From Psychrobium sp. MM17-31 (GTDB lineage Bacteria > Pseudomonadota > Gammaproteobacteria > Enterobacterales > Psychrobiaceae), in the NCBI RefSeq assembly GCF_022347785.1, contig NZ_JAKRGA010000003.1, positions 1-64,000 on the forward strand: a stretch of 64,000 nucleotides of DNA. The letters run 5' to 3'. Below, one piece after another: positions 1-17,732 of this stretch. Position 1 is the first letter of the stretch. Every line of letters starts with the position of its first letter. The notes beneath the pieces were generated by a model. That model had not been told where the DNA came from. It saw only the letters and a list, made by a program, of their open reading frames with translations, and did not search any database. Made by a program: the position numbers and the translations under genes.

Positions 1-3000
1 CCAACCAACTGTTTGCGATTGATGCAACAAGCGGCATAGTGACGATTAAAGCCGAGCGTGGTCTGAATTATGAAACAGCGCAATCGCACGATATTACGAT
101 TATTGCGACCTCAGAGGACGGTTCAACCTCAAGTAATACCTTCACTATCAGTGTTGGTAACAACGAAGAAGGTCGCGGCGGCGAAGGCACCTCGGGTGAT
201 ACTGATACCGATGTATCAGCCATTACGGATATCGATACCTCAGTGGTGACGATAGAGCATGATGCAGCTAAAGACACGTTGGTGGGTATTACTGCATTTG
301 CCGAAGATACCGATACTGGTGATACGGTGACGTACAGCCTAAGCGGCGTTAACAAAGACTTATTTAGCATCGATGCAAGCTCAGGCGTGATTCGTGTGGC
401 AGATGGCTTTAGCACCGATGCGACGTCACTGGATGTGATTGTTGTTGCAACATCGACGGACAAATCAAGCTCAAGTGAAACCTTTACCATTGCCATTAAC
501 CAAGATGTTGGTCCGTTAATAGACGAAAATGATGATGCGAATAATGTCGCCGAAGATGCCGAAGTTGGATCAGAAGTAGGGATCACTGCCTTAGCAAAAG
601 ATGCAAATGACGAAGATGTCGTGACTTACGCACTGTCAGCGGCTGACCAAACCGCTGGTTTATTTGCTATTGATGCAACCACTGGTGTGGTGACCGTTGC
701 TGGCTCACTTGACCACGAAGATGCAAGTTCACACAGCATTACAGTGATAGCCACATCAGCCGATGGCTCAACCTCAAGCGATAGCTTTACCATTAATGTC
801 ACTGATGTTAATGAAGCGATTAGTGAGCTTAAGGATGATAACGATGACGCCAACACAGTTGCTGAAAATGCTGCTGCAGGCACAACCGTTGGCATTACCG
901 CACTTGCGACAGACCAAGATGATAGCGTGACATACGCACTGTCAGCAGCTGACCAAGCTGCTGGTTTATTTGCTATTGATGCAACCACTGGTGTCGTAAC
1001 AGTTAAAGGCTCATTTGACCACGAAGATGCAAGTTCACACAGCATTACAGTGATAGCGACATCAGCCGATGGCTCAACCTCAAGCGATAGCTTTACCATT
1101 AATGTCACTGATGTTAATGAAGCGATTAGTGAGCTTAAAGATGATAACGATGACGCTAACACGGTTGCGGAAAACGCCGCTGCTGGCACAACTGTTGGTA
1201 TTACCGCGCTTGCTACAGACCAAGATGAAGATGACAGCGTGACATACGCACTGTCAGCGGCTGACCAAGCTGCTGGTTTATTTGCGATTGATGCAACCAC
1301 TGGTGTGGTGACCGTTGCTGGCTCACTTGACCACGAAGATGCAAGTTCACACAGCATTACAGTGATAGCCACATCAGCCGATGGCTCAACCTCAAGCGAT
1401 AGCTTTACCATTAATGTCACTGATGTTAATGAAGCGATTAGTGAGCTTAAGGATGATAACGATGACGCCAACACAGTTGCTGAAAATGCTGCTGCAGGCA
1501 CAACCGTTGGCATTACCGCACTTGCGACAGACCAAGATGAAGATGACAGCGTGACATACGCACTGTCAGCAGCTGACCAAGCTGCTGGTTTATTTGCTAT
1601 TGATGCAACCACTGGTGTGGTGACCGTTGCTGGCTCACTTGACCACGAAGATGCAAGTTCACACAGCATTACAGTGATAGCCACATCAGCCGATGGTTCA
1701 ACGTCAAGCAATAGCTTCACCATTAATGTCACTGACGTGAATGAAGCGATTAGCGCGCTTGAAGATGATAACGATGATGCCAACAGTGTTGCTGAAAATG
1801 CAGCAGCTGGCACAACGGTTGGTATCACGGCCTTAGCGACTGATGAAGATGCCACAGACACTGTGTCTTATGCACTGTCAGCGGCTGACCAAACCGCTGG
1901 TTTATTTGCTATTGATGCAACCACTGGTGTCGTAACAGTTAAAGGCTCACTTGACCACGAAGATGCAAGTTCACACAACATTACAGTGATAGCGACATCA
2001 GCCGATGGCTCAACCTCAAGTGATAGCTTCACGATTAATGTCACTGATGTTAATGAAGCGATTAGTGAGCTTAAGGATAATAACGATGATGCCAACACGG
2101 TTGCTGAAAACGCAGCAGCTGGCACAACGGTTGGTATCACAGCCTTAGCGACTGATGAAGATGCCACAGACACTGTGTCTTATGCACTGTCAGCAGCTGA
2201 CCAAGCTGCTGGTTTATTTGCTATTGATGCAACCACTGGTGTGGTGACCATTGCTGGCTCACTTGACCACGAAGATGCAAGTTCACACAGCATTACAGTG
2301 ATAGCCACATCAGCCGATGGCTCAACCTCAAGTGATAGCTTCACGATTAATGTCACTGACGTAAACGAAGCTATTGGCACGCTCACCGATAGCAACACTG
2401 CGGCTGACAGCGTGGCAGAAAACGCAACGGTCGGAACAACCGTTGGTATTACCGCACTTGCGACAGACCAAGATGAAGATGATAGCGTGACATACGCACT
2501 GTCAGCAGCTGACCAAGCTGCTGGTTTATTTGCTATTGATGCAACCACTGGTGTGGTGACCGTTGCTGGCTCACTTGACCACGAAGATGCAAGTTCACAC
2601 AGCATTACAGTGATAGCCACATCAGCCGATGGTTCAACGTCAAGCAATAGCTTCACCATTAATGTCACTGACGTGAATGAAGCGATTAGCGCGCTTGAAG
2701 ATGATAACGATGATGCCAACAGTGTTGCTGAAAATGCAGCAGCTAGCACAACGGTTGGTATCACGGCCTTAGCGACTGATGAAGATGCCACAGACACTGT
2801 GTCTTATGCACTGTCAGCGGCTGACCAAACCGCTGGTTTATTTGCTATTGATGCAACCACTGGTGTGGTGACCGTTGCTGGCTCACTTGACCACGAAGAT
2901 GCAAGTTCACACAGCATTACAGTGATAGCGACATCAGCCGATGGCTCAACCTCAAGTGATAGCTTCACGATTAATGTCACTGACGTAAATGAAGCGATTA

Positions 3001-6000
3001 GTGAGCTTAAAGATAATAACGATGACGCTAACACGGTTGCGGAAAACGCCGCTGCTGGCACAACGGTTGGTATTACCGCGCTTGCGACAGACCAAGATGA
3101 AGATGACAGCGTGACATACGCACTGACAGCGGCTGACCAAGCTGCTGGTTTATTTGCGATTGATGCCATTAGTGGTGTTGTAACGGTTGCTGGCTCACTT
3201 GACCACGAAGATGCAAGTTCACACAGCATTACAGTGATAGCCACATCAGCCGATGGCTCAACGTCAAGCAATAGCTTTACCATTAATGTCACTGATGTTA
3301 ATGAAGCGATTAGTGAGCTTAAGGATGACAACGATGACGCCAACACAGTTGCTGAAAATGCTGCTGCAGGCACAACCGTTGGCATTACCGCGCTTGCTAC
3401 AGACCAAGATGAAGATGACAGCGTGACATACGCACTGTCAGCAGCTGACCAAGCTGCTGGTTTATTTGCGATTGATGCAACCACTGGTGTGGTGACCATT
3501 GCTGGCTCACTTGACCACGAAGATGCAAGTTCACACAGCATTACAGTGATAGCCACATCAGCCGATGGCTCAACGTCAAGCAATAGCTTTACCATTAATG
3601 TCACTGATGTTAATGAAGCGATTAGTGAGCTTAAGGATGACAACGATGACGCTAACACGGTTGCTGAAAATGCTGCTGCAGGCACAACCGTTGGCATTAC
3701 CGCGCTTGCGACAGACCAAGATGAAGATGACAGCGTGACATACGCACTGTCAGCGGCTGACCAAGCTGCTGGTTTATTTGCGATTGATGCCACTAGTGGT
3801 GTTGTAACGGTTGCTGGCGCGCTTGACCATGAAACCGCGCCGCAACACACAGTAACCGTGATTGCCACCTCAACAGATGGCTCAACGGTAAGCGATAGCT
3901 TTACCATTAATGTCACTGACGTAAACGAAGCTATTGGCACGCTCACCGATAGCAACACTGCGGCTGACAGCGTGGCAGAAAACGCAACGGTCGGAACAAC
4001 CGTTGGTATTACCGCACTAGCCACAGACCAAGATGAAGATGACAGCGTGACATACGCACTGTCAGCGGCTGATGAAGCTGCTGGTTTATTTGCGATTGAT
4101 GCCACTAGTGGTGTTGTAACGGTTGCTGGCGCCCTTGACCATGAAACTGCGCCATCACACACAGTGACTGTGATTGCTACATCAACCGATGGCTCAACGT
4201 CAAGCGATAGCTTTACGATTAATGTCACTGATGTGAATGAAAGCCCTGTAGCGACTAATGATAACTTTGCTGACTTCCAGTTAATTGCAAAAATTGACGA
4301 GAATCGAGGAGTTCAAAAGTTTCAGGCGTTTGATGCACTCGACGGGTATAGCAATAGTGTTAGTACTGTGTCAGTTGGAACTGATGGGCGATTTGCAAGC
4401 GTATGGCGCACGGATAATAGCGACAATGATGCTTCTATTTACGTGCAAAGCTTTAATGCTGATGGTTCACCTAATACTGCGGTTAATCCTGCTACAGGTG
4501 GAATGATAAAGCTCCAAGCTACTGGAAATGTTGACGGACAAAATTATCATCCGGCGATATCTGCAATAGGCGATTCCGGTGCATTTGCAGTAACTTGGAT
4601 GGGGGAAGAACCAGAAAGTGGTGATTTCTCTATTTATTTGCAACTGTTTAACGCAGATGGAACATTAAATCATTCACCGAATGGAACACAGAAATTAGAA
4701 GCTTTTGATAACACATCTGGAGAAGATCGTCTGCCTCGAATTACTAGTGTTGGCAACAATGGCGATTTCGTTGTGGTCTGGACCGGTGAAGATGAGCAAG
4801 GAGATCACTCTGTAAGTTACGCGAAGTTTGATATTAATGGTGAGATTTATGCCCCCGGCATTCAAAAGCTTGAAGTTGCTGGCAATCTTGCAATGGATGA
4901 TTTTACAACGTCCGTTACAGCGCTGGGCGACGATGGTTCATTTGCAATTGGTTATATAGGCACTGATCTCGAGGGCGATACTTCGGGCTATGTTCAAACT
5001 TTTGACGCAAGCCTTGGCAAACTTAGTCTTAATAAACTGGAGACACCAGATAGTACAACGATAAATGAAAATGGTACTCAAATAGCCTCTATCGGTAATG
5101 ATGGCTCCTACGTTGTAGTGTGGAGTAGTACTCAGGGGAGTTTTGGTAACGAAGTATACTCAAAACACTTTGTGCAACGTTTTAATGCTGACGGTTCGCC
5201 TCATGCTTCCGGGATTCAAGAGTTATCGGATGACTACCCTGAACTCGCTCGTGCGGATGCTAATGTTGTTGCATTAGGTGATTCAGGTGCTTACGCAATT
5301 ACGTGGACAGTTGGTCTTAGTGATATCAATACGTCAGCAAAATCGTTTGTTCAGTTTGTTGGTCCAAATGGTGACTTAGGAGCAACTTCGCCAACTCAAT
5401 TACAAGCGCCATTTATGCAATCTGGTAATGAATGGCCAACAATTACACCGTTAGATGATGGTGGATTTGTAGTGACTTGGATTGGTGAGGTAGTCGGTGA
5501 CCGATTGGAGGGCTTCTTTAACTATATACCCGGTCAAACGTTTGTCTTTACACAAAAATTTAATGCAGATGGTACAATAGATACCTCTCCGAGTCCTGAA
5601 ACGAACGGTGTGATATTAGTCGAAAGTTATGATGCTAGTCGTGTTATTAACTTAATTCCTGATACAACAGCTGTTGGAACTGACGGAGCTTACGTTGTTA
5701 CTTGGCCGAGCTTAGATAAAGATGGAAATGTTGCAATTTATACTCAGTCGTTTGATGAGAATGGCGTTAAGATTCAAGAAAATCCTGCTAGCCCAGGCGT
5801 TTATAAACTAAATGTTCTCGCTAATGATTTTGACCAAGACACGGGAGACCAAATTTCAATTTGGAAAATTGCCGATCAAGATGCAACTTCGGGTCAAGAG
5901 ATCGATATATTCCAGGGTGGTGAACTCGTTGGTACAGCAAGAATAGAGTCAAATGAAATCGTATTCACACCAGGAGCTAGCCTTGCCCGTTTAGCTGAAG

Positions 6001-9000
6001 GCGAAAAATTAAGTATTTCGTTTGAATATACAATTCGCGATAGCGAAAATAACTCAGATACAGATTCAACAGCGACTGTGACCTTTAACGTAATAGGCGC
6101 AGACGATGCAAGTGTCATTGTTGATGATCTTGTGACGACACAAGAAAATGAAACGTTAAATGGCAATGTTTTAACAAACGATAGTGATGTCGATAATACG
6201 CTAATTATCGAAACGTTTATTCTGCCGGGTGATACTACGATATATCAAGCGGGCAATACAGGTACTATCGAAAATGTGGGTACTTTTACCTTAAATAGTG
6301 ATGGTAGCTATACTTTCGTGCCAGAAGAAAATTACTCTGGTAATGTTCCTCAAATTCATTATTACACTAATACAGGAGCGCGTGGTGCGTTGAATATTAC
6401 CGTTGTTAATGGTCCTGAGGTAGGGGCAATTAGTGACGAAGATGCTAGCGGAGACAGTGACAACCACAAACTCTCTGAAAATGCAGTTGTCGGTACTGAA
6501 GTTGGCATAACCGCATTTGCTGAAGATCCTGATGATGAAGTGACGTACAGTCTTGCAGACAATGATGGCGGTTTATTCGCTATCGATGCGACGTCCGGTG
6601 TAGTCACTCTCGTTGGCAACGTTGATTACGAAACAGACAAGAGTCACAAGATTACCGTACAAGCAAACTCGGAAGATGGCTCAACCAGTACTAAAGTCTT
6701 TACCATAGATATTGGTGATAATAATGACGGTAATGGTGGAGAGGGTACAACTGGTGATACTGATAATGCTGTAACTCAAGTGCATGACTCGGACGATGTG
6801 ATAGCGAGTTTGGTATCTGAGAATGCACCGATTGGTACTTACGTTGGTATGACGGCATTCGCCGAAGATGCTGATGGCGATAAAGTGACTTATAGCCTTA
6901 TCGATGTGGGTATTGATGAGCAAGGGCGTGCTAAGTTTGCCGTCGATGCAGATACAGGGGAAATAACTGTTGCAGGTAATTTGGACTTCGAAAAGGAAAA
7001 TCTCGAAGAAATTACTATGGTGGCAACATCCGAAGATGGTTCAACATCGACACAGCAAGTAATAATTGTTATTCACAACAATGAACAAGGGATAGGAGGA
7101 ACTGGAACAACAGGTGATACCGATAATGCTGTGTCAGCAATTACCGATAGTGATAATACGATTGGCAAAGTATCTGAAAATGCTATTGCCGGAACCAAAG
7201 TTGGCATTACGGCATTTGCCGATGATAGTGATAGACGCGATGATGTCGCTTATAGCATCGTTGGTGATGCGGGACCATTTGTTATCGATGCATCGACCGG
7301 TGTGATTACCGTTACAGGTAATTTAAATTATGAAACTCAAGATACATACCAGTTAAAAGTATTAGCAACTTCTAAAGATAGCAGTACGTCAACCCACACC
7401 TTTACTATTGAAGTAGATAATAATGAAAATGGGCTAGGTGGCGAAGGAACAAGCGGCGACACAGATAGAGCCGTTGATCAAGTACGCGATAGTGATGACG
7501 TTATTGTGAGTCTCGTATCTGAAAATGCGACTATTGGTACCTATGTAGGGTTGACTGCATTTGCCGACGATCCGGACGGAGATAAGGTCACATATAGCCT
7601 GATTAATGTTGGTGTCGATGAACAAGGCCGTGAAAAATTTGTCGTCGATGAAAACACAGGTGAAATTACTGTTGCGGGTAATTTAGATTTTGAAAAGGAA
7701 AACTTTGAAGCAATTACGATGGTTGCAACATCGGAAGATGGCTCAACATCGACTCAACAAGTGACAGTCGTCATTCATAATAACGAGAAAGGTATCGGCG
7801 GTGAAGGAACACAAGGCGATACTGATAATGCTGTCAGTGCAATTGAAGATAAAAACACCGCAGCGAATATTATCGTAGAAAACGCGACCGTGGGCAGTGA
7901 AGCTGGGATCACTGCATTCGCTAACGATCTTGATAATGGCGACGAAGTTACTTACAAATTATCCGATGCAGACATAGCGGCTGGGCTCTTTGCGATTGAT
8001 GCAAACTCCGGTGTTGTAACTGTTGTTGGTAACCTGAATTTTGAAACACAGCAATCTCACGATATTACGGTAATAGCAACCTCTGAAGATCAAAGCTCAG
8101 CCACCAAAAACTTTGTGATTACTGTTAGCGATATTAATGAAGCACCTGTGATCACAGAGGTCGAGTCATTTACAGCAGTAGAAGAAACTGCGCAGTTAAA
8201 TCAAATTGTTGCTCGCATAATTGCAATAGATCCTGATACTGATGAGTTAACGTTCTCAATCACTCAAGGTAACGAGTTAGGTTATGTCACCATCGATTCT
8301 GATAGTGGCGAAATAACACTGACCCAAGCGGGAATCGATGCGCTAAATGACAATGCGGGAAATATCACTACCTTATCATTAACAGTTCAAGTTAGTGACG
8401 GTGATTTATTTACTCAACAGCCTGTTGTTATCACACTTGATGAGATGGTCGCACCAACAATCGAGATAGCCAGTAGCTCAGACACTGGTGAGTCTGATAG
8501 CGATGGTATAACTTCTCAAAACAAACCTATCTTTGCAGGCAACGGCGAGATCGGTGCCACTATAGTGCTAACTATCGATGGCACTGAAATAGGTCGCGGT
8601 GTTGTTCAAGGAGATGGCACATATACAATCATCTCAGCAACTACATTAGATGATGGTGAGCACACAGTTGTGGTTACGGCAACAGATAGTAGTAACAATG
8701 AAAAAAGTGCTCCGTTAAGTATTACTATCGATACGCAAGGGGTGGGGGCTATCAGCGTTGATCCTGTCACTGACAATAACATTATCGATAAAGATGAAGT
8801 CGGCACACAAATTACTATTACAGGCAGTGCAAGCGGAGAGTTTGCTACTGGCGATTCTGTTACCACCACGATAAATGGCACCCAGTATAGCGGTGTGATT
8901 TCAAGTGACGGTAACAGCTGGTCAATTGAGAATGTTAGCACCGATGATATCATCGCAGACAATGAGTTTAGTATTCAGGCGAATGGTAGTGATGTTGCTG

Positions 9001-12000
9001 GCAACGCTATTTCACATGCTCAAACAGTGACTGTTGAAATCTATGAAAATAATGCGCCTGTTGCTGTTGATGATGACACTGTTGTTGTTTCTTCAACGCA
9101 GGTATTAGTAGAAGAAACATTCGGAAGTGGCACAACAGGTTGGCAAAATCAAAAGCTTAACTCAGGACGTTTAAAAGTCGAAAATGGCACAACATCGTCG
9201 AAAGTCTTCGATTTTGGACCTGAACACGCTGGTGAAACAGTGACCATTTCCTTTAGGGCTAAAGGGAATAAAAATTGGGATGGTGGAGCAGATGACATCA
9301 AAGTGTATTTTAATGATGTTAAAGAGATTGATGATTCGTATACCAATGGAAATTGGCATCAATATAATGACATCGCAGTCACTTTAGATGCACAAGGGCG
9401 CGTGAAATTGGCTTTTGAAGCATCTACGAATGCTAACAATGAAGACTTATTAATTGATAATGTCGTTATTAAAACGGGTGATGATTACACCTCGAATATT
9501 ACTACTGATGAAGATAGCGCATTAACGATTGATGTATTAGCGAATGATAGTGACGCAGATGGAGATGCGCTCACTATTACTCATTTAAATGGAACTGAGT
9601 TAACTAATGTTATTAACAGCGTTGAAGTGCTAGACGTCAATGGAATGTTGGCAGGGCACATTAGTGTGGTCGATGGCAAGGTGGTATTTACGCCTGATGT
9701 ATCACTTAATTCTATGGCGCAAGGTGAAGAACTCGCATTGAGTTTTACCTATTCAATTAGTGATGGTGATGCTAGCGACAATGCAACTGCGAGCTTTGTT
9801 GTGGCTGGTACTAATGATCTTCCTGTCATTACACAAGTCGAGACTCAGGTTGAGAATTCTGTTCAATCTATCGTGATTGCGACAATTACAGATATTGACG
9901 GAGATTTAGATCTCGATGCAACTAATGCTTCTGCACAAAATGGTACCGTGAGTATTAACGCGAATGGAGAAGTAATATATACACCAAACACGAATTTTTC
10001 TGGAATAGAAAGTATTACGATTACTGCTATTGATGAAGCTGGTGCTATTGTCCCACAAACCATTAGTTTGAACGTAATGCATGTCAACCATGCGCCAGTA
10101 GCAGTCGATGATACCTTTGGTGCTTTGGAAGATGTGTCCAACTTATTAAGCGCGACGAATTACACGGGTAACGTCAGTTATGGCCAAGAGATAGCTTATC
10201 AAGGCATCGTGGGCAAGCGTCAACAAATCGAAGTCTTGAATGAAAATGGTGATTTTGCTATGACTTGGCAAGTGATTGCTAATGGTCAAACAAAAGACTC
10301 TATTGCAGTTCAAATGTTTAATAGTGAAGGTGATGCGATTAGCAGCGTTGTCCTAATGGATACTGTTGGACTTGACGATGAGGATAACTTGCCACGGATT
10401 ACTGCTCTCGGTGACAGCGGTGAATTTGTGGTGAGCTGGCAAGGTAAAGAACACACCTCGCAAGGCAGTGATTACTCGATTTTCACGCAGCAATTTAACG
10501 CTGACGGGACGATTTCAGGCCATGAGCGACATAAATTCGAATCGGGTCCAACCAATGCTGCCGACAAATACCAGCAAATTACGTCGATTGGCGACAATGG
10601 CGAATATGTCATGGTGTGGTATGGCAATGTTGGTGGCAATTATTATCATTTCTTACAGGAATTTGATAGTAACGGCGAACCGTCTGGCTCTGCTACACGC
10701 CTAGAGCCAGCAGGAGCACCACTAGGTAGCGAATTCAAGCCTGATATTACCGAAGTTGGTAATGACGGTAGTTATGTGGTTACTTGGGTTGGGACATCAG
10801 GTGGCAAACGTCACGTTTATACTCAGAAATTTAATAACGATGGCTCGTCAGCTGATGTTGTTTCCTATCAAGCAGATTCAAGAAACCCAGATTACAATCA
10901 GGCTACATCCACAGTAACCGAAGTTGGCACTGATGGTAGTTATGTATTGGTATGGAGTAACTACACTAGTGTGAATCGTTCTGAAACATACTTCCAACGC
11001 TTTGACGCCGAAGGTGAGCCTGTATCAAACTCACCAACTAAAGTCGATCAACAAGGCACTAAGCACAATGATTATAATCCGCAGGTTGTTGCTTTAGGTG
11101 ACAGTGGTAATTTCGCATTAGTGTGGGAAGAAACAAACGGAACAGAAAGTCTCATATATATTAAAGCCTATAATGCAGACGGCTCAGCAATGCGCACTGA
11201 AGCTATCACATTGGATGGGTTTACTAATGTTGACTTACGCAATGCAAATCCAAGTATTACCAATATAGGAACCGATGGCGATTTTGTGATTGCTTGGGAA
11301 AGTGAAGCTGATAGTAGTGATAATTATGCTGTCTTCGTCCAACGTTTTAACAATCTGGGGCTGCCAGTGGGTGAAATGGTTCAGCTTGATGAGCCAAGTA
11401 CTACCTGGACAAATCAAATATTTAAAGAGCCTCAAGTTTTTGCCAACGGCAATGATGGTGCCTTTAATGTGGTATGGCGTGGGCATGATGATACACAATA
11501 TACCTCTTTAAATATTCAAGGTTTCGACGCCAACGGTCAGCGTATTGGTGATTTTGGCAATAGCCGAGGTGATTTCGATATTACTCTTGATTCTGAGGCA
11601 TTAAGCGCGCAACAAGTTAGAGTTACCTATTCGACTGGTCAGCTCATGGTTAATGGTGAAGCAGTTGCCTCTGGCAGCTTAGTCAATGTTGATGAGTGGA
11701 ATAATGTTCAATTAGTTAATGCTAAAGGCAAAGATTATGACTTAAAGATTGAAGCAGTTTCTGCCGATGAAATTGGCCAAGATGAAATACAGTTGCTTGA
11801 TGTCTTAGCTAATGATAGTGATCCAAATAACGACCCCCTATCTATCGTTGAAATAAACGGTCAAGATGTCTCGCAAGGACAGGAAGTTGATATTACCGTT
11901 TCCGGTGAAGTAATTGGAACTGCATCAGTGGTTAATAATCAAATTCGCTTTGTACCAAGTGATGTTTTACACGTATTACCTGAAGGCGAGATAGCAAGTT

Positions 12001-15000
12001 ATAGTTTTGATTATCGTATTGCTGATGATAAAGCTCTGAAGAGTGAAATAGCACAGGTAACTTTCAATGTGATCGGTACTAATGATGCGCCAATAGTTGA
12101 GTTTACGCATACTGACGTTGTGAGAGATGGCGATGTTGTTATTGTTGGGAATGTTCGTGATATAGATAGTGAATTAGACTTTTCTAAAACCACAATTAGT
12201 GCAGATAGCGGTGTCGTTACTATTGATGAGAGTACTGGAGATATCCTTTATACAGCGCAAGGAAATGCTGAACAGGCCCAAATAACTATTAATGCTTTTG
12301 ATGAACAAGGAGCTAAAACTAAGGTAGTACACAAAATAACTATCGAAATTCCAAATAGTGCGCCGGTGGCACAAGATGATGATTTTACGACGAGAGACGA
12401 AATGCCGCTGCGAGTAAATAGTGATACTTCTGGTATTCGAGAAGAATATTCGGATATTGCTGTACTTAATGATGGTAGTTATGTTGTGACCTGGTCTACT
12501 TTTGGAAGTAGTGGTGGGGTGTTCTTTAAACATTTTGATGCGAATGGAAATGCACTGACAGATAGTGAATTGGTTCATCAATATGGTAGAGAGTCATCCC
12601 CTTCAATTACAGCGGCAGCTGATGGCGGTTTTGTTATTGCTTATCAGGGAAGTTCAGGTATTGCTCAATTTAAGCGCTATAACAGTGATGCTGAACAAAT
12701 TGGTGTTGGTGAGCAGAGTTTAACTTACAGCCTTGATGAGTATAAAAATCAATTAGAAATCATGGCTCTGGATGAGGGCGGTTTCGCAGCTGTTTATGAA
12801 CATTGGGGGGCAGGTAGCATAGTGTCTTCTGATGTTCGTTTTGAATTGGTGGATGCAGATGGCAATGTAACTTTGACAGATGTTGTTATTACTAATGACG
12901 ATAATATACATGATATGAGCCCACAATTGGCGCAACTTAATAATGGCAGCTTTGTTGTTACTTGGTTGTCGTGGCAAGAAGATGGCTGGCAAATACAACA
13001 ACAGCGTTTGAGCAGTGATGGTTCCAAGATTGGTGGTGTCACTGAAGTGTCGACAACTAACTATACTGGTGACTCATCGGCCGTTAACGTTAATAAGTGG
13101 CCTGTTGTGAGTGAGTTACAAGATGGCGGTTATATCATTGCATGGTACGCAATGACTGAATATTCTGGTCAGATTTCGGGAGATAACATCTATCAACTTA
13201 TGACACAGCGTTTTGATAAGGGTGGTCAAAAAGTTGGAGGCGAAAAAGTTGTTAGTGATGGCTTAATGAACATAGGCACAGATATCACACAGCTAAGTAT
13301 TGATACGTTAGCTAACGGTAATTTAGTCGTTGTCTATGCATCTGAGACTATGACAGATGAGGCCAATATTTTTGTTCGGGTAATAGATAAGAACGGTACT
13401 GCTGTAAGTCAAGAAATTCAAATTAACCCAGATTCAGATTATGCACACAAGACTCCGTCAGTGAAATCACTTGATGACGGTGGTTTTATTGTAACTTGGG
13501 CGCTGTTTGAAAATGATGAAGAAGGGGACATTTTTACTAAGCGCTTTGATGCTAGCGGTGTTGAAACTGGAGCCAAAATTATTTATGAAGAAGATGCCCC
13601 TATTGTTTTGGATGTTTTAGCTAATGACAGTGATGTAGATAATGACACGTTAGTTATCACTCAAATTAATGGTCAAGATGTATCTTCTGGGCAAACGGTA
13701 GAAGTTACTAATAATAAGGGAAAAATTATTGGTACTGCGAGTGTTATTAATGGAAAAATTGAGTTTATTCCTGGCGAAGAGATTGAGAAGCTCAAGCAGG
13801 ATCAATTGAAAGACTTTAGTTTTGAATACACGATTAGTGACGGGGAAGCGACTGATAGCGCTACTGTAAGTTTTACTGTTCGAGGATCAGAAAATGCAGT
13901 CCCTGTAGTACAAGATGATAAAAGCACTTGGGTTGATATTTCTGATGAGATTATTATTACTGGTTTTGATAATGCATCAACAGGCATAAAACACGAAGAC
14001 GATACAAGCTCGCGTAGTGACGGAGATTTATTTGATTATGCAGCTGTCGGCAATGATGGTACATCGGTATTAATTTATGGTGGAAGTGATACCGGTAAAT
14101 ATTATGTGCAGCGAATAAACGCTGACGGTACCAAGAATGGTAATGCGGTTGAGTTAAAAGGCAGCAGCACTTTAGCTATAATGAACTTTGAACCTAAAAT
14201 AACTGCTATTGGAAATAGTGGGGATTATGCAGTGACCTTTATTGGTCAGAAAAACAATGGCTCGAAAGCTGTTTATGCACAAAAGTATAGCGCTGATGGT
14301 GATACTGTTGGTGCATTACAAAAAGTTGATATTGATACAGCTGGTATTAGCGATAGTAAAGTTGAAGCCGATGTTCCTAATACCGCGAGTAACTTTGGTA
14401 AAGTATCTGAAACACAGACATTTACAGAGCTAATGTATGGCAATAATCAGGAAGCCGAATTAGCCAATGGCAATATTGTCCGAGTTTGGACTGCTTTTGA
14501 TGGGACTTCAGGAAATCAGTATAACAATACTGTATTTGCTCGTGTTTATAGCAAAGACGGGCAGCCATTAGCTGATGAGTTTGAAGTTAATCAGTGGCAG
14601 GGGCAAGCAAGCGCAAATGCTAAGAAGAGTTTTAGTGAAGTTGTAGTATCAGCGTCAGCTGACGGAGGCTTCAACATATTTTGGCATTCATATAATCAAT
14701 CTAACTTTGAAAGTAATGATCCTACACGTGACACGTCAGATATTTCGACCGATCTTATGGTTCGAAGTTATGATAGCAGTGGTAATGCAGTCACAGATGA
14801 AGTGGCGTTAGAAAGTTACCAAGAATCTGGTCATGTTAGTTATGAGTATTCTAGCTCTTCGAGACAAACCAATTCATTGCTATTGGCGAATGGAAACACA
14901 CTCGTTTCTTGGGTTGAGCCAGATGAATTTACAAACCAACCAGAACTAAAAACAATGATTTTGGATTCAGATCTTAACGTAGTTCACGATGAGGTTGGTA

Positions 15001-17732
15001 ATTTATCTGTTTCATTGCATTACTATCAAGGAAAGAGTAATTCAACAACAGACTATGATAATAGCGTTGAAGCGCACAAGTTTGATACTGTTAGCGATAT
15101 TCGAGTCGTTGAAACAGCTGATAATTTGTTGCTCTATACTGCGTCAGGTTATAAGCGAAGCGCCAATAATGGAGATGGAGAGTCATCTGATTATGAAACT
15201 TGGACATGGGTCATTGACCCTACGACGAATCAACGTGTTGGTGATACTCAACAGCTAACACCTGTTCAAAAAGGTATTTCTTATCATTCTGTTGGACTTG
15301 CCTTTGATCCTATTACTAAATTATATGCATCATTCCATGCAACAGGTAATCAACTTTACAGAACGGATTTAGATGCCCAAGGAAATATTATTAATGCTAG
15401 TTACAGTGTTGGTAGTCTCGACTATGTTAATTATCGAACAGGACATCGCTTAACTGAAAGTTCGATTGGTGCAACTATTGATAGTGACGGTAATGTCGTC
15501 GCATTCTATTCCTACGGTATTTCTAATATTGGCTCTGGCCACTATGGTTCTGTTATTTCTAAAATATTCCCAAGTAATGGCGGGCCTGCGACTACAACGG
15601 AGCACGAATATAATTATGGTATGGGGCATCCTTATGAAGGCGAGCTTTATCAAAAAACAGATGGCACTTTTTCCTATAGTTTTTCTGCAGGAACTGGAGT
15701 TACGGCTAACATTCATCGTTGGGGAGGGAGCTTTGTCGTTGAAGGCGCAGCTGGAAAAGCTGATTCACCTATTGTTACTGAGGCAAACGAAGTATTTATT
15801 ACGTCTACTCAGCAAGATGGTAGCTATGCTGTTCTCTTTACATCGGTAAACCCAGATACATCTACTCTTAATGTTTATACGCAAGCATTTAAGGCTAATG
15901 GTAAAAAAGATGGAATCGCGAAAAATATCACCCCTAATGACTTGAAAGATGGCAATGTAGCGGATATTGCATTAATTGAGTCTGATAATAGTTTTGCGTT
16001 GTCATTCCAACGTGGTGAGCAGGCTTATATACAACTCCTTAATCAAGCTTTGGCGAAATATAATGCGCCAATATCACTTGGTGAGCAAACAAGTGATGTG
16101 ACTATTATAGCTAGTCAAAATGGTGAGTTTTTGGCGGCTTATCAGTCTGGTGTTGATAAAACTGCTGCTATAGAGGTGAAACGATTTGATAGTGAAGGTG
16201 AACAACTTGGTAACACTATTGTTTTAAATACTAAATCTAGTGGTAAACAGGTAGCTGATACTGCGCCAAATATTACAGAGTTAACTGATGGTAGCTTTGT
16301 GGTAGTGTGGAGTGGTGCTGGAACGACATCAACTACTGATGATATTTACGTTGCAAGATTTGATCGGGATGGCAATGAACTTAGTCGAGTGCGCATGAAT
16401 ACATCAGCCAAAGATGATCAGCTACCTAGTGTGACGGGTATCGGTGATGATGGTGAATTCGTTGTTGCATGGCATAGTGATGCAATTTATAGCCAAAAAT
16501 TTAGCGCTGATGGTAATAAAGTTGGCAATAAAGTAAAAGCTGGCCCACTCGATAATCTTAACGTTGATGCAGAAAATGTGCATTTAATTGCCTTGCCAGA
16601 TGGGCGATTTGCGATAAGTTTTGAATCCGACGGTAGTTTATATACCCAAACATATAATGCTAATGGTTCTAAGTCACTTATTATTGAGAATAAGACTCAG
16701 ATTGGCGACTTTGAATTAGCGGATCTCGATGTCGCAGATATTAATACTGTTTATCAAGTCCAGTATACTCAAGGTCAATTAATGTTGGATGGTCAAGAGG
16801 TTGCTAGTGGTAGTGAGATTACAGCTGCACAGTGGCACAATGCAGTAATGAAAGGTGTTAATTTAAATAATTTTGATTTAACGCTTAAGCAATCAATATC
16901 ATTAATGACGGATGAAAATACGCCTATTCGCGTCAATGTTCTTGCTAATGATACTGATTTAGAGGGAGATGCACTAAGTATTGTTACTATCGATGGTCAA
17001 GACGTTAGTCATGGGCAAACCGTTGAGGTGACTGATAATAAAGGACGTATTCTTGGCTCTGCACGTGTTGTCAATGGTGAAATTGAATTTACTCCAGGTG
17101 AGCAGATCCACAAATTAACACCGGGACAGACTAAAGAGTATAATTTTGATTATACGGTGACTGACGGTAAATCAGAAAGCGCTCCTGCGACGGTAGTATT
17201 TCTTGTGGAAGGGGCTGAGCCTATCAATCAATCTGTGATCGCTCAGAATGCGGAACAACTTAAAACTCCCGCTACCCCTGACTCTGACAATATTGGTAAT
17301 AATGATATTGCTTTTAATGAGGTGAATTTAGATACTAGAGGAGTTGAAATTGAAGAGAGCGTTAATATCATTGGCCTTGATGCTTCTCTTATTGACGTTG
17401 AACATGCTGATGAAGTCTGGTTTGCTCATGAAAATGACAGTCAGCAAAGCGAAAGCTCAATTGTTGATGCGTCAGATTATGAAAACTTGATCTTGGAAGA
17501 GCAAGAATCATTGTTGCAATACCTAGATTCCAACTTCGATGAAGACAAAGAGTTGATTCAAGGATTAGATAATGAACTTGAAGCGCTAGATACACCGCCA
17601 CCGTCAATTACCGACCAAGAAGAAGTGATTGTTAACGGTAATAAAGATGGTGTTGTGCTACAACCTAACGGTAACAGCGTTGATCCAGAGTCAGCACAAA
17701 GCCTCGATGATTTAGATGATGATATTGTGTAA
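1..17732 (+). CDS. Giant cadherin/VCBS/propeller-repeat surface protein, 5' partial
   Basis: The reading frame is open from base 3 to a TAA at 17730-17732, so about 5,909 C-terminal residues are visible and the start lies outside the window. A GTG at 39 is only an internal codon, because cadherin-like sequence continues upstream of it. Order seen: two cadherin-type repeats; twelve 312-bp cadherin-type units (about 525-4245); propeller-like repeats (4300-5770); more cadherin repeats with GGxGTxGDTD linkers (6410-8150); two Ig-like domains (8450-9040); a jelly-roll-like segment (9110-9480); propeller blocks at 10190-11555, 12440-13570 and 14020-16680, each followed by a VLANDxD domain; then an acidic tail (17215-17732). 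DxD-rich repeats suggest calcium-stabilised extracellular modules, so adhesin or matrix protein is the likely role. No RTX nonapeptides and no membrane anchor are seen at the C-terminus, and no secretion genes lie downstream. Function and export route are inferred only weakly. Confidence 0.85.
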   Translation, partial: NQLFAIDATSGIVTIKAERGLNYETAQSHDITIIATSEDGSTSSNTFTISVGNNEEGRGGEGTSGDTDTDVSAITDIDTSVVTIEHDAAKDTLVGITAFAEDTDTGDTVTYSLSGVNKDLFSIDASSGVIRVADGFSTDATSLDVIVVATSTDKSSSSETFTIAINQDVGPLIDENDDANNVAEDAEVGSEVGITALAKDANDEDVVTYALSAADQTAGLFAIDATTGVVTVAGSLDHEDASSHSITVIATSADGSTSSDSFTINVTDVNEAISELKDDNDDANTVAENAAAGTTVGITALATDQDDSVTYALSAADQAAGLFAIDATTGVVTVKGSFDHEDASSHSITVIATSADGSTSSDSFTINVTDVNEAISELKDDNDDANTVAENAAAGTTVGITALATDQDEDDSVTYALSAADQAAGLFAIDATTGVVTVAGSLDHEDASSHSITVIATSADGSTSSDSFTINVTDVNEAISELKDDNDDANTVAENAAAGTTVGITALATDQDEDDSVTYALSAADQAAGLFAIDATTGVVTVAGSLDHEDASSHSITVIATSADGSTSSNSFTINVTDVNEAISALEDDNDDANSVAENAAAGTTVGITALATDEDATDTVSYALSAADQTAGLFAIDATTGVVTVKGSLDHEDASSHNITVIATSADGSTSSDSFTINVTDVNEAISELKDNNDDANTVAENAAAGTTVGITALATDEDATDTVSYALSAADQAAGLFAIDATTGVVTIAGSLDHEDASSHSITVIATSADGSTSSDSFTINVTDVNEAIGTLTDSNTAADSVAENATVGTTVGITALATDQDEDDSVTYALSAADQAAGLFAIDATTGVVTVAGSLDHEDASSHSITVIATSADGSTSSNSFTINVTDVNEAISALEDDNDDANSVAENAAASTTVGITALATDEDATDTVSYALSAADQTAGLFAIDATTGVVTVAGSLDHEDASSHSITVIATSADGSTSSDSFTINVTDVNEAISELKDNNDDANTVAENAAAGTTVGITALATDQDEDDSVTYALTAADQAAGLFAIDAISGVVTVAGSLDHEDASSHSITVIATSADGSTSSNSFTINVTDVNEAISELKDDNDDANTVAENAAAGTTVGITALATDQDEDDSVTYALSAADQAAGLFAIDATTGVVTIAGSLDHEDASSHSITVIATSADGSTSSNSFTINVTDVNEAISELKDDNDDANTVAENAAAGTTVGITALATDQDEDDSVTYALSAADQAAGLFAIDATSGVVTVAGALDHETAPQHTVTVIATSTDGSTVSDSFTINVTDVNEAIGTLTDSNTAADSVAENATVGTTVGITALATDQDEDDSVTYALSAADEAAGLFAIDATSGVVTVAGALDHETAPSHTVTVIATSTDGSTSSDSFTINVTDVNESPVATNDNFADFQLIAKIDENRGVQKFQAFDALDGYSNSVSTVSVGTDGRFASVWRTDNSDNDASIYVQSFNADGSPNTAVNPATGGMIKLQATGNVDGQNYHPAISAIGDSGAFAVTWMGEEPESGDFSIYLQLFNADGTLNHSPNGTQKLEAFDNTSGEDRLPRITSVGNNGDFVVVWTGEDEQGDHSVSYAKFDINGEIYAPGIQKLEVAGNLAMDDFTTSVTALGDDGSFAIGYIGTDLEGDTSGYVQTFDASLGKLSLNKLETPDSTTINENGTQIASIGNDGSYVVVWSSTQGSFGNEVYSKHFVQRFNADGSPHASGIQELSDDYPELARADANVVALGDSGAYAITWTVGLSDINTSAKSFVQFVGPNGDLGATSPTQLQAPFMQSGNEWPTITPLDDGGFVVTWIGEVVGDRLEGFFNYIPGQTFVFTQKFNADGTIDTSPSPETNGVILVESYDASRVINLIPDTTAVGTDGAYVVTWPSLDKDGNVAIYTQSFDENGVKIQENPASPGVYKLNVLANDFDQDTGDQISIWKIADQDATSGQEIDIFQGGELVGTARIESNEIVFTPGASLARLAEGEKLSISFEYTIRDSENNSDTDSTATVTFNVIGADDASVIVDDLVTTQENETLNGNVLTNDSDVDNTLIIETFILPGDTTIYQAGNTGTIENVGTFTLNSDGSYTFVPEENYSGNVPQIHYYTNTGARGALNITVVNGPEVGAISDEDASGDSDNHKLSENAVVGTEVGITAFAEDPDDEVTYSLADNDGGLFAIDATSGVVTLVGNVDYETDKSHKITVQANSEDGSTSTKVFTIDIGDNNDGNGGEGTTGDTDNAVTQVHDSDDVIASLVSENAPIGTYVGMTAFAEDADGDKVTYSLIDVGIDEQGRAKFAVDADTGEITVAGNLDFEKENLEEITMVATSEDGSTSTQQVIIVIHNNEQGIGGTGTTGDTDNAVSAITDSDNTIGKVSENAIAGTKVGITAFADDSDRRDDVAYSIVGDAGPFVIDASTGVITVTGNLNYETQDTYQLKVLATSKDSSTSTHTFTIEVDNNENGLGGEGTSGDTDRAVDQVRDSDDVIVSLVSENATIGTYVGLTAFADDPDGDKVTYSLINVGVDEQGREKFVVDENTGEITVAGNLDFEKENFEAITMVATSEDGSTSTQQVTVVIHNNEKGIGGEGTQGDTDNAVSAIEDKNTAANIIVENATVGSEAGITAFANDLDNGDEVTYKLSDADIAAGLFAIDANSGVVTVVGNLNFETQQSHDITVIATSEDQSSATKNFVITVSDINEAPVITEVESFTAVEETAQLNQIVARIIAIDPDTDELTFSITQGNELGYVTIDSDSGEITLTQAGIDALNDNAGNITTLSLTVQVSDGDLFTQQPVVITLDEMVAPTIEIASSSDTGESDSDGITSQNKPIFAGNGEIGATIVLTIDGTEIGRGVVQGDGTYTIISATTLDDGEHTVVVTATDSSNNEKSAPLSITIDTQGVGAISVDPVTDNNIIDKDEVGTQITITGSASGEFATGDSVTTTINGTQYSGVISSDGNSWSIENVSTDDIIADNEFSIQANGSDVAGNAISHAQTVTVEIYENNAPVAVDDDTVVVSSTQVLVEETFGSGTTGWQNQKLNSGRLKVENGTTSSKVFDFGPEHAGETVTISFRAKGNKNWDGGADDIKVYFNDVKEIDDSYTNGNWHQYNDIAVTLDAQGRVKLAFEASTNANNEDLLIDNVVIKTGDDYTSNITTDEDSALTIDVLANDSDADGDALTITHLNGTELTNVINSVEVLDVNGMLAGHISVVDGKVVFTPDVSLNSMAQGEELALSFTYSISDGDASDNATASFVVAGTNDLPVITQVETQVENSVQSIVIATITDIDGDLDLDATNASAQNGTVSINANGEVIYTPNTNFSGIESITITAIDEAGAIVPQTISLNVMHVNHAPVAVDDTFGALEDVSNLLSATNYTGNVSYGQEIAYQGIVGKRQQIEVLNENGDFAMTWQVIANGQTKDSIAVQMFNSEGDAISSVVLMDTVGLDDEDNLPRITALGDSGEFVVSWQGKEHTSQGSDYSIFTQQFNADGTISGHERHKFESGPTNAADKYQQITSIGDNGEYVMVWYGNVGGNYYHFLQEFDSNGEPSGSATRLEPAGAPLGSEFKPDITEVGNDGSYVVTWVGTSGGKRHVYTQKFNNDGSSADVVSYQADSRNPDYNQATSTVTEVGTDGSYVLVWSNYTSVNRSETYFQRFDAEGEPVSNSPTKVDQQGTKHNDYNPQVVALGDSGNFALVWEETNGTESLIYIKAYNADGSAMRTEAITLDGFTNVDLRNANPSITNIGTDGDFVIAWESEADSSDNYAVFVQRFNNLGLPVGEMVQLDEPSTTWTNQIFKEPQVFANGNDGAFNVVWRGHDDTQYTSLNIQGFDANGQRIGDFGNSRGDFDITLDSEALSAQQVRVTYSTGQLMVNGEAVASGSLVNVDEWNNVQLVNAKGKDYDLKIEAVSADEIGQDEIQLLDVLANDSDPNNDPLSIVEINGQDVSQGQEVDITVSGEVIGTASVVNNQIRFVPSDVLHVLPEGEIASYSFDYRIADDKALKSEIAQVTFNVIGTNDAPIVEFTHTDVVRDGDVVIVGNVRDIDSELDFSKTTISADSGVVTIDESTGDILYTAQGNAEQAQITINAFDEQGAKTKVVHKITIEIPNSAPVAQDDDFTTRDEMPLRVNSDTSGIREEYSDIAVLNDGSYVVTWSTFGSSGGVFFKHFDANGNALTDSELVHQYGRESSPSITAAADGGFVIAYQGSSGIAQFKRYNSDAEQIGVGEQSLTYSLDEYKNQLEIMALDEGGFAAVYEHWGAGSIVSSDVRFELVDADGNVTLTDVVITNDDNIHDMSPQLAQLNNGSFVVTWLSWQEDGWQIQQQRLSSDGSKIGGVTEVSTTNYTGDSSAVNVNKWPVVSELQDGGYIIAWYAMTEYSGQISGDNIYQLMTQRFDKGGQKVGGEKVVSDGLMNIGTDITQLSIDTLANGNLVVVYASETMTDEANIFVRVIDKNGTAVSQEIQINPDSDYAHKTPSVKSLDDGGFIVTWALFENDEEGDIFTKRFDASGVETGAKIIYEEDAPIVLDVLANDSDVDNDTLVITQINGQDVSSGQTVEVTNNKGKIIGTASVINGKIEFIPGEEIEKLKQDQLKDFSFEYTISDGEATDSATVSFTVRGSENAVPVVQDDKSTWVDISDEIIITGFDNASTGIKHEDDTSSRSDGDLFDYAAVGNDGTSVLIYGGSDTGKYYVQRINADGTKNGNAVELKGSSTLAIMNFEPKITAIGNSGDYAVTFIGQKNNGSKAVYAQKYSADGDTVGALQKVDIDTAGISDSKVEADVPNTASNFGKVSETQTFTELMYGNNQEAELANGNIVRVWTAFDGTSGNQYNNTVFARVYSKDGQPLADEFEVNQWQGQASANAKKSFSEVVVSASADGGFNIFWHSYNQSNFESNDPTRDTSDISTDLMVRSYDSSGNAVTDEVALESYQESGHVSYEYSSSSRQTNSLLLANGNTLVSWVEPDEFTNQPELKTMILDSDLNVVHDEVGNLSVSLHYYQGKSNSTTDYDNSVEAHKFDTVSDIRVVETADNLLLYTASGYKRSANNGDGESSDYETWTWVIDPTTNQRVGDTQQLTPVQKGISYHSVGLAFDPITKLYASFHATGNQLYRTDLDAQGNIINASYSVGSLDYVNYRTGHRLTESSIGATIDSDGNVVAFYSYGISNIGSGHYGSVISKIFPSNGGPATTTEHEYNYGMGHPYEGELYQKTDGTFSYSFSAGTGVTANIHRWGGSFVVEGAAGKADSPIVTEANEVFITSTQQDGSYAVLFTSVNPDTSTLNVYTQAFKANGKKDGIAKNITPNDLKDGNVADIALIESDNSFALSFQRGEQAYIQLLNQALAKYNAPISLGEQTSDVTIIASQNGEFLAAYQSGVDKTAAIEVKRFDSEGEQLGNTIVLNTKSSGKQVADTAPNITELTDGSFVVVWSGAGTTSTTDDIYVARFDRDGNELSRVRMNTSAKDDQLPSVTGIGDDGEFVVAWHSDAIYSQKFSADGNKVGNKVKAGPLDNLNVDAENVHLIALPDGRFAISFESDGSLYTQTYNANGSKSLIIENKTQIGDFELADLDVADINTVYQVQYTQGQLMLDGQEVASGSEITAAQWHNAVMKGVNLNNFDLTLKQSISLMTDENTPIRVNVLANDTDLEGDALSIVTIDGQDVSHGQTVEVTDNKGRILGSARVVNGEIEFTPGEQIHKLTPGQTKEYNFDYTVTDGKSESAPATVVFLVEGAEPINQSVIAQNAEQLKTPATPDSDNIGNNDIAFNEVNLDTRGVEIEESVNIIGLDASLIDVEHADEVWFAHENDSQQSESSIVDASDYENLILEEQESLLQYLDSNFDEDKELIQGLDNELEALDTPPPSITDQEEVIVNGNKDGVVLQPNGNSVDPESAQSLDDLDDDIV
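525..4245 (+). repeat. Twelve tandem 312-bp cadherin-type coding repeats
   Basis: The landmark before 'TYALSAAD' (GTGACATACGCACTG and variants) falls at 621, 927, 1239, 1551, 1863, 2175, 2487, 2799, 3111, 3423, 3735 and 4047. Spacing is exactly 312 bp (104 codons) except the first step, 306 bp, where unit 2 lacks two codons (DQDDSV against DQDEDDSV). Each unit encodes VAENAAAGTTVGITALATD, LFAIDATTGVVTVAG and SFTINVTDVNEA strands typical of cadherin-like domains. Many units are nearly identical at DNA level, which points to recent duplication or gene conversion. Confidence 0.93.
4300..5770 (+). repeat. Propeller-like repeat block 1 (about 8 repeats)
   Basis: About eight degenerate repeats of roughly 50-65 residues share the pattern [IVL]G[DNT][DNS]G[SADR][FY][VA]xxW...(F/Y)xQxF(N/D)ADG, for example IGDSGAFAVTWMGEE and VGNNGDFVVVWTGED. 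The number of repeats and the alternation of hydrophobic strands suggest a beta-propeller, which is an inference. The block lies between a PVATND motif (about 4246) and NVLANDFD (about 5809). Confidence 0.7.
6410..8150 (+). repeat. Diverged cadherin repeats with glycine-rich GDTD linkers
   Basis: Five cadherin-type repeats carry SENAxxGTxVGITAFAxD and LFAIDATSGVVTV strands. They are joined by linkers of the form NNExGxGGEGTxGDTD, which also occur at the extreme 5' end of the window (about 160-210). Unlike the 525-4245 array these units are clearly diverged at DNA level. Alternate units resemble each other: the unit near 6780 and the one near 7490 share VDEQGR and LDFEKEN segments, suggesting an old two-unit duplication. 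Confidence 0.75.
10190..11555 (+). repeat. Propeller-like repeat block 2 (about 8 repeats)
   Basis: Eight repeats of the same pattern as block 1, for example LGDSGEFVVSWQGKE, VGNDGSYVVTWVGT and IGTDGDFVIAWESEAD, each ending in an (F/Y)xQxFNxxG-like strand. The block is preceded by HAPVAVDDTFG (about 10090) and followed by a GQLMVNGEAVASGS linker and DVLANDSD (about 11802). Confidence 0.7.
12440..13570 (+). repeat. Propeller-like repeat block 3 (about 7 repeats)
   Basis: Seven repeats, for example LNDGSYVVTWSTFG, LNNGSFVVTWLSWQ and LDDGGFIVTWALFE. The block follows SAPVAQDDDF (about 12360) and is followed directly by APIVLDVLANDSD (about 13596). Seven is a usual propeller blade number, but no structure is known to me for this repeat. 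Confidence 0.65.
14020..16680 (+). repeat. Propeller-like repeat block 4 (about 15 diverged repeats)
   Basis: About fifteen more diverged repeats, for example IGNSGDYAVTFIGQ, SADGGFNIFWHS, LTDGSFVVVWSGAG and IGDDGEFVVAWHSD. The length would suit two consecutive propellers. The block follows VPVVQDDKST (about 13900). It is followed by a second GQLMLDGQEVASGS linker (about 16700-16890) and NVLANDTD (about 16936). Confidence 0.6.

Follow-up and report, generated by a model that had tools for sequence, protein, structure and literature searches.

Five predicted split Big_9 domains with propeller-type and jelly-roll inserts in a giant adhesin-like protein of Psychrobium sp. MM17-31

The stretch of Psychrobium sp. 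MM17-31 DNA analysed here (64,000 nucleotides, hereafter the window) opens with a long coding region in which two short motifs, PVAxDD and VLAND, stand hundreds of residues apart, and this arrangement raises the question of whether each pair of motifs belongs to one Ig-like domain interrupted by a large insert or whether the first motif is only a connection between neighbouring domains. The open reading frame concerned (3..17732, plus strand) has 5,909 codons and encodes the C-terminal part of a giant adhesin-like protein. It lacks a start codon because the window begins at a contig end, where the 5' end of the frame is cut. By eye, positions 3-4230 consist of very similar tandem cadherin-like repeats of about 100 residues each, and these repeats are the likely cause of the contig break. 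At the opposite end lies a C-terminal tail without a Pfam match (17205..17729, plus strand) that terminates in LDDLDDDIV, compared with LDDIDDDII at the terminus of the frame at locus L059 of the congener G007.

Five PVAxDD segments and six VLAND segments occur in the window frame. The first-pass annotation had read them as five split pairs, and we found all five within one open frame where it had placed them, its coordinates being right to within about 10 bases and its insert lengths to within about 15 residues. The PVAxDD segments start at nucleotides 4245, 9057, 10095, 12363, and 13902 and their VLAND partners at 5814, 9534, 11802, 13614, and 16938, with 523, 159, 569, 417, and 1,012 residues from the first PVAxDD residue to VLAND. 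The strands themselves stand 153-1,006 residues apart from their VLAND halves, and no further PVAxDD lies between the members of any pair.

All parts of the split domains are encoded on the plus strand, and each of the five remainders is a Big_9 match. In split domain 1, the first strand VNESPVATND (4233..4262) is followed by an insert of eight propeller-type blades, assigned with a blade profile (4263..5780), and by the remainder of the Big_9 domain with its VLANDFD (5781..6083). Split domain 2 consists of the strand ENNAPVAVDD (9045..9074), a predicted jelly roll for which the model is weak and the fold matches include carbohydrate-binding modules (9075..9500), and the remainder at 9501..9800. 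In split domain 3, VNHAPVAVDD (10083..10112) precedes eight propeller-type blades and then a beta module of about 65 residues beginning GDFDITLD (10113..11768), with the remainder at 11769..12068. Split domain 4 starts with PNSAPVAQDD (12351..12380), continues with seven propeller-type blades by the same profile, one of them at 3.0 bits (12381..13580), and closes at 13581..13880. Split domain 5 starts with ENAVPVVQDD (13890..13919) and carries the longest insert, about 995 residues with 11 blade matches above 0 bits, one at 0.1 (13920..16904), before its remainder at 16905..17204.

A matrix for the first strand was derived from 236 VLAND sites at loci outside the genus of the window, with VLAND as its only anchor and ten columns that cover residues -23 to -14; these loci had been found by searching with sequences of the window protein and are not a random sample. 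A strand lies no more than 40 residues from VLAND at 207 of the 236 sites, 14 sites are split candidates, and 15 are neither. The region around the insert was read for four of the 14 candidates (L048, L139, L151, and L069) and in part for L042, and some of the others may hide an Ig domain without VLAND. In the window, by comparison, none of the six VLAND sites has a local strand and five are split. The five first strands score 13.3, 18.6, 21.2, 22.1, and 14.2 for split domains 1 to 5, the top five positions of the frame, and they are exactly the five among 5,900 positions that score at least 10, a threshold that was fixed after the scores were known, with the next non-overlapping position at 8.2. 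Because only these five positions reach a score of 10, we do not regard the five pairs as products of chance. The sixth VLAND (aa 2056) is a counter-case, with a best upstream strand score of -2.2 and a best local score of 3.8. The frame at L059 of G007 shows the same arrangement, the strand standing 153-1,018 residues upstream at six of its seven VLAND halves and, at a score of 10, locally at none; the seventh has the degenerate strand HTLTAINDDF. A plain pattern count of PVAxDD-VLAND gaps, in which 75 of 109 gaps measured 11-25 residues and 32 exceeded 60, was replaced by the matrix count, as several of its long gaps were missed VLAND variants.

The assignment of the strand to a domain can be approached from the Big_9 profile as well. 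Pfam assigns the domains that enclose the inserts (the domain frames) to Big_9, Cadherin_4, or Cadherin_5; all five in the window exceed the curated Big_9 cut-off, and a Big_9 match with E up to 0.001 was obtained in 11 of the 11 domain frames scanned from a set of 14. The first-pass annotation had favoured VCBS or tandem-95 domains, a naming that is not borne out: the Pfam matches across 4200-17729 include no VCBS model, and tandem-95 reached 22.5 bits in the window and 33.0 bits in L059 against a cut-off of 90. Among the 35 Big_9 matches in the genome, 26 start at profile position 1 and two at positions 2-3. The other seven start at positions 9-17, and these are the five domain frames of the window, which begin at positions 10-17, the domain frame of a jelly-roll paralogue (C3:396880), and one match at C4:388258. 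The Big_9 start positions and the strand matrix agree with each other, and at this level the repeated nested layout that the first-pass annotation had described stands. Moreover, the domain that precedes the segment is a cadherin repeat by eye before split 1, matches Ig_like_ice and Ca_tandemer before split 2, is an unsplit Big_9 domain before split 3, and is the fourth domain frame itself before split 5. Despite this variety of preceding domains, PVAxDD accompanies VLAND domains, and sequence comparison supports its belonging, as a first strand, to the domain after the insert. Judged from sequence, the split and the Big_9 family of the domain frames are established, and five Ig-like Big_9 domains are discontinuous, with the first strand before the insert and the bulk after it. 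When the domain-frame profile was searched against PDB sequences, no credible relative was found (the hits were thioredoxins, with values of 0.04-0.09, and a fragment of an RTX protein, with 0.12 and an i-Evalue of 3.3), and no significant match to a solved split domain was obtained.

The inserts had been described as propeller-like or jelly-roll-like, and by prediction both the blade profile and the fold matches bear this out. Inserts 1, 3, and 4 gave 8, 8, and 7 blade hits at a spacing of 49-74 residues, and insert 5 gave 11, one of them at 0.1 bits and two of them separated by a step of 276 residues; the jelly-roll insert gave zero. The profile was made from these same inserts, so it describes their regularity and is no independent test. 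Read in this way, the repeat nature of four inserts is evident in their sequences; inserts 1, 3, and 4 are predicted arrays of eight, eight, and seven blades, and insert 5 is a predicted long array with 10-11 detected blades, which perhaps forms two rings, as its length alone would suggest. For inserts 1, 4, and 5 the propeller type is predicted from repeat similarity only. For insert 3 it is predicted from an AlphaFold2 model of the preceding domain and split domain 3, built from nine sequences, which shows repeated strands at a mean pLDDT of 80.2 and a pTM of 0.61. With E no higher than 0.001, a Foldseek search of this model against the PDB returned 210 matches, and we take the good ones to be propeller proteins. 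Among the best 50 of the 210, the highest TM by target length was 0.53, for the rhamnose-glucuronate lyase 7esl (443 columns, rmsd 7.6), clathrin heavy-chain domains reached 0.33-0.45, and many rows had a low TM and an rmsd above 20. The model of the jelly-roll insert is weaker (pLDDT 63, three sequences, blocks of 61-84 at residues 121-240), and the predicted fold matches the extender domain 4kdv of M. primoryensis (TM 0.71, 30% identity) and, among carbohydrate-binding modules, the CBM36 structure 7ay3 (TM 0.61). Neither the jelly roll nor the propeller profile found a credible relative among the sequences of solved structures. The beta module of about 65 residues (GDFDITLD...DYDLKIEA) that stands between propeller and domain frame at about 11550-11760 has equivalents in L059 and L060; in the alignment it is present in several inserts and missing from others.

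A comparison with G007 bears on how the inserts and the domain frames have evolved. The downstream genes of L059 and of the window, which in the window are Lon-like, methyltransferase, PheS, and PheT, agree in codon count (667, 400 vs 429, 326, and 795) and have the same order and strand; because of this agreement in length, order, and strand, L059 is taken as the orthologous locus. Counterparts in G007 were identified for four of the five window inserts, with identities of 37-56% along 140-973 residues (W4/w4, 47% over 973; W2/b, 52% over 550; W3/c, 37% over 374; jelly roll, 56% over 140). No such counterpart exists in G007 for insert 1, whose best matches are 33-34% to other propellers. The order of modules is not the same in the two proteins, and the best matches of the domain frames often disagree with those of the inserts. 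In a tree of 14 domain frames over 97 columns, with no branch starred, W2 and G_b already group together (56/70). An approximately unbiased (AU) test rejected a sister relationship for the jelly-roll domain frames W_JR and G_JR (p 0.008, or about 0.03 when corrected for four tests) and did not reject it for W4/G_w4 (p 0.242) or W3/G_c (p 0.219); placing the three jelly-roll domain frames together gave p 0.035. For one of four pairs, these comparisons weakly suggest that inserts and domain frames have separate histories. Gene conversion between neighbouring domain frames is an alternative that would look alike.

The propeller module was matched in three of nine genomes of the genus with the window's own counted, in 22 of 394 genomes of the order with the three genus genomes counted, where many matches cover only the domain frame, and in 67 of 369 genomes of the class with its own counted, where many cover only the domain frame or the blades. 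Nested arrays of the window's blade type were found in the window, G007, G004, and L069, the last being on plasmid p49 of the alphaproteobacterium Pseudooceanicola algae, in which NQAPVAGADN is followed by seven detected blades and then by TEDGKLKSRIKDLLANDSD. The L069 array is the only one of the 39 blade arrays listed (20 of 24 loci) that shows both split halves within the flanks listed with it. Further arrays of L069 and of L080 are followed by VLAND and preceded by no clear strand, and the others listed show neither. For the blade family of the window, as far as these sequences go, nesting is the exception.

Other cargo appears at the same point. At L139 (353-1540; genome G431, same class and another family), a PD40 repeat (E 3.9e-6) lies between PVAVDD and VLAND and is a different, unrelated propeller repeat at the same socket. 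In the paralogue L064 (G000:C3, a 4,773-codon frame on the minus strand), a related jelly roll splits a Big_9 domain at the same point, with a strand-to-VLAND gap of 157 residues, and the inserts of L055 and L151 look like jelly rolls by eye. At L038, L040, L041, L045, and L047, from five genomes of family f12, about 295 residues separate the strand from VLAND; this segment is possibly other cargo or an Ig domain without VLAND. Combined jelly-roll and domain-frame matches that start within the insert were seen at G007:C110:10269-10877 and G004:C81:3231-3800, in frames of 1,836 and 1,767 codons. Two stretches of viral contigs were matched and none was confirmed as a relative, and searches of PHROGs with two pieces and of PADLOC with one piece gave no match.

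The rest of the gene is probably present on contig C1, which starts with a minus-strand frame (G000:C1:1-9804) that ends ...TATNQ. The window opens with NQLFAIDATSG inside a cadherin repeat; by eye, the ends of C1 and C3 have eight bases in common and one cadherin repeat continues across them, and a scripted check found no overlap of 30-299 bases between the two ends. From these eight bases and this one cadherin repeat, the adhesin gene seems to be cut by two contig ends; the C1 part (about 3,270 codons) and the window frame (5,909) are likely to be one gene, and its complete product may have about 9,180 residues. The C1 part contains many cadherin matches, and its N-terminal region has a retention_LapA match below the cut-off (E 1.4e-4, 22.1 bits vs 50) and a TAAG segment that is presumably the LapG site. 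On C8, LapD-like, LapG-like, OmpA, outer-membrane efflux, and HlyD genes stand side by side, with Peptidase_C93 adjoining LapD_MoxY_N/GGDEF/EAL. The RTX motif GGxGxD occurs zero times in the window frame, zero times in L059, and twice in the C1 part, so an RTX block is taken to be absent. On this evidence, the gene looks as if it encodes a giant adhesin of the LapA type that lacks an RTX roll.

The first-pass annotation knew of no described family of this kind, a statement that is contradicted by published work, since the split-domain principle is already known from RTX adhesins. In PMC10865825 and PMC12077191, these split domains consist of one strand, a ligand-binding domain, and then the Ig-like remainder, and they are said to project ligand-binding heads. 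The split Ig-like domain of FrhA, known from a model, has 12 residues before and 106 after its sugar-binding domain, and a split domain of AhLap was crystallised with its insert (PMC10865825, PMC12077191). Modules of FrhA and AhLap bind fucosylated glycans and a vWFA domain of AhLap binds a diatom (same two sources). It is also noted in PMC10865825 that a structure or model is usually needed to spot such domains with any ease, as their sequence is discontinuous and may escape homology-dependent programs. The window protein resembles FrhA, AhLap, and MpIBP, as these papers describe them, in the succession of strand, whole domain, and Ig bulk and in having these in what, for the window protein, would be the ligand-binding region. 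Unlike them, its domain frames are Big_9 and it has no RTX block. The cargo differs too: in the published cases described there, it comprises sugar-binding or CBM, peptide-binding, PA14, RTX roll, and vWFA domains, whereas in the window it consists mostly of propeller-type arrays of 400-1,000 residues, with five splits per protein.

Further likenesses can be drawn to other adhesins. The window protein resembles LapA-type adhesins in its repeat stalk and in the LapD, LapG, and efflux genes of the genome, and it probably has an N-terminal retention module with TAAG, for which the match lies below the curated cut-off. It differs in that its stalk is cadherin-like and the Lap-type genes are on C8. 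The extender domains of the M. primoryensis ice-binding adhesin match the domain that precedes the jelly roll (Ig_like_ice, Ca_tandemer; 4kdv fold), while the stalk in the window is cadherin-like. BapP of Pseudoalteromonas tunicata, a biofilm adhesin, has an N-terminal propeller followed by Big_9 repeats according to PMC12153261, and it is alike in combining a propeller with beta-sandwich repeats, among them Big_9. The word propeller is absent from the main text of PMC10865825 and PMC12077191, and among the papers listed by literature searches no title or opening of an abstract mentions a propeller in a split domain, though the survey by Graham et al. 2024 may include propellers. What is apparently new here is that propellers serve as cargo, that a single protein has five splits, that the arrangement can be recognised by a signature in the sequence, that a PD40 insert occupies this site in another genome, and, on weak sequence-based evidence, that inserts and domain frames evolve separately.

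We consider it probable that a giant LapA-type surface adhesin has its distal, ligand-binding end in this region, where five Big_9 split domains carry projecting inserts. The tandem cadherin-like domains would form an extended stalk, and the five distal Big_9 (Ig-like) domains would act as split domains. In each, the chain would lay down the first strand N-x-A-P-V-A-x-D-D, exit by the loop that follows to form an entire beta-propeller or jelly-roll domain, and re-enter just before V-L-A-N-D, where the Ig fold would be completed. Because both ends of an insert leave from one place, each insert would stand out from the side of the fibre and leave its far face exposed. By analogy with the published heads, such projecting inserts may bind ligands, and it is our guess that the jelly roll and the propellers bind glycans or other surface polymers.

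This reading has to be weighed against one in which PVAxDD either serves as a calcium-binding linker or ends the domain before it, with propellers and Ig-like domains merely alternating along the chain. Calcium is typically bound by acidic linkers between domains of this sort. In the model of split domain 3, where the blocks at the strand region have a pLDDT of 75 and 69, PVAxDD lies after the final strand of the domain before it (E82-92) and forms only the isolated bridge at V99, and in the jelly-roll model the strand region falls to a pLDDT of 28. A linker would, however, hardly stay so close to VLAND, at most 40 residues away in 207 of the 236 sites of other loci, nor would it account for the Big_9 domains after the inserts lacking their first 9-16 profile positions, which are present in 26 of the 35 genome matches. 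The preceding domain varies as well, and altogether we hold the linker reading to be quite unlikely.

Two further alternatives accept the split and differ on its meaning. It is possible, if somewhat unlikely, that the inserts are structural spacers or enzymes instead of ligand-binding heads. Lyases and sialidases are among the fold matches listed for insert 3, and the RTX roll insert of AhLap has no obvious ligand site and does not bind erythrocytes (PMC10865825 and PMC12077191). Against this, the cadherin array already supplies extension, and the inserts of FrhA and AhLap mentioned above bind fucosylated glycans or, for the vWFA domain, a diatom. That the inserts are instead mobile or duplicated pieces of recent origin, with selection playing no part in their pairing with the domain frames, seems very improbable. 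The different module order in the window and G007, jelly-roll domain frames that are not sisters though their inserts are, and the missing G007 orthologue of insert 1 would fit such an origin; the counterparts of the other four inserts, at 37-56% identity, and a reading frame that is open throughout argue against it.

Beyond the window, we tentatively propose that the loop after the first Big_9 strand could be a general socket that accepts entire folds with no relation to one another (several jelly rolls and beta-propellers from two or more families), that inserts and domain frames could be reassorted in giant adhesins, and that the strand-VLAND signature could reveal unknown ligand-binding heads directly from sequence; we regard this broader proposal as rather less likely to be right than wrong. 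Its odds are lowered because only one of the 39 listed blade arrays shows both halves.

For split domains of the Big_9 type, the strand matrix together with VLAND allows recognition from sequence when no structure is at hand. Genomes could in this way be screened for candidate ligand-binding heads of giant adhesins, and suitable boundaries chosen for their expression; propellers, as heads, would extend the known cargo by a large and versatile fold. Should the discordance between the jelly-roll inserts and their domain frames hold up, it would be one way in which adhesins could change their target.
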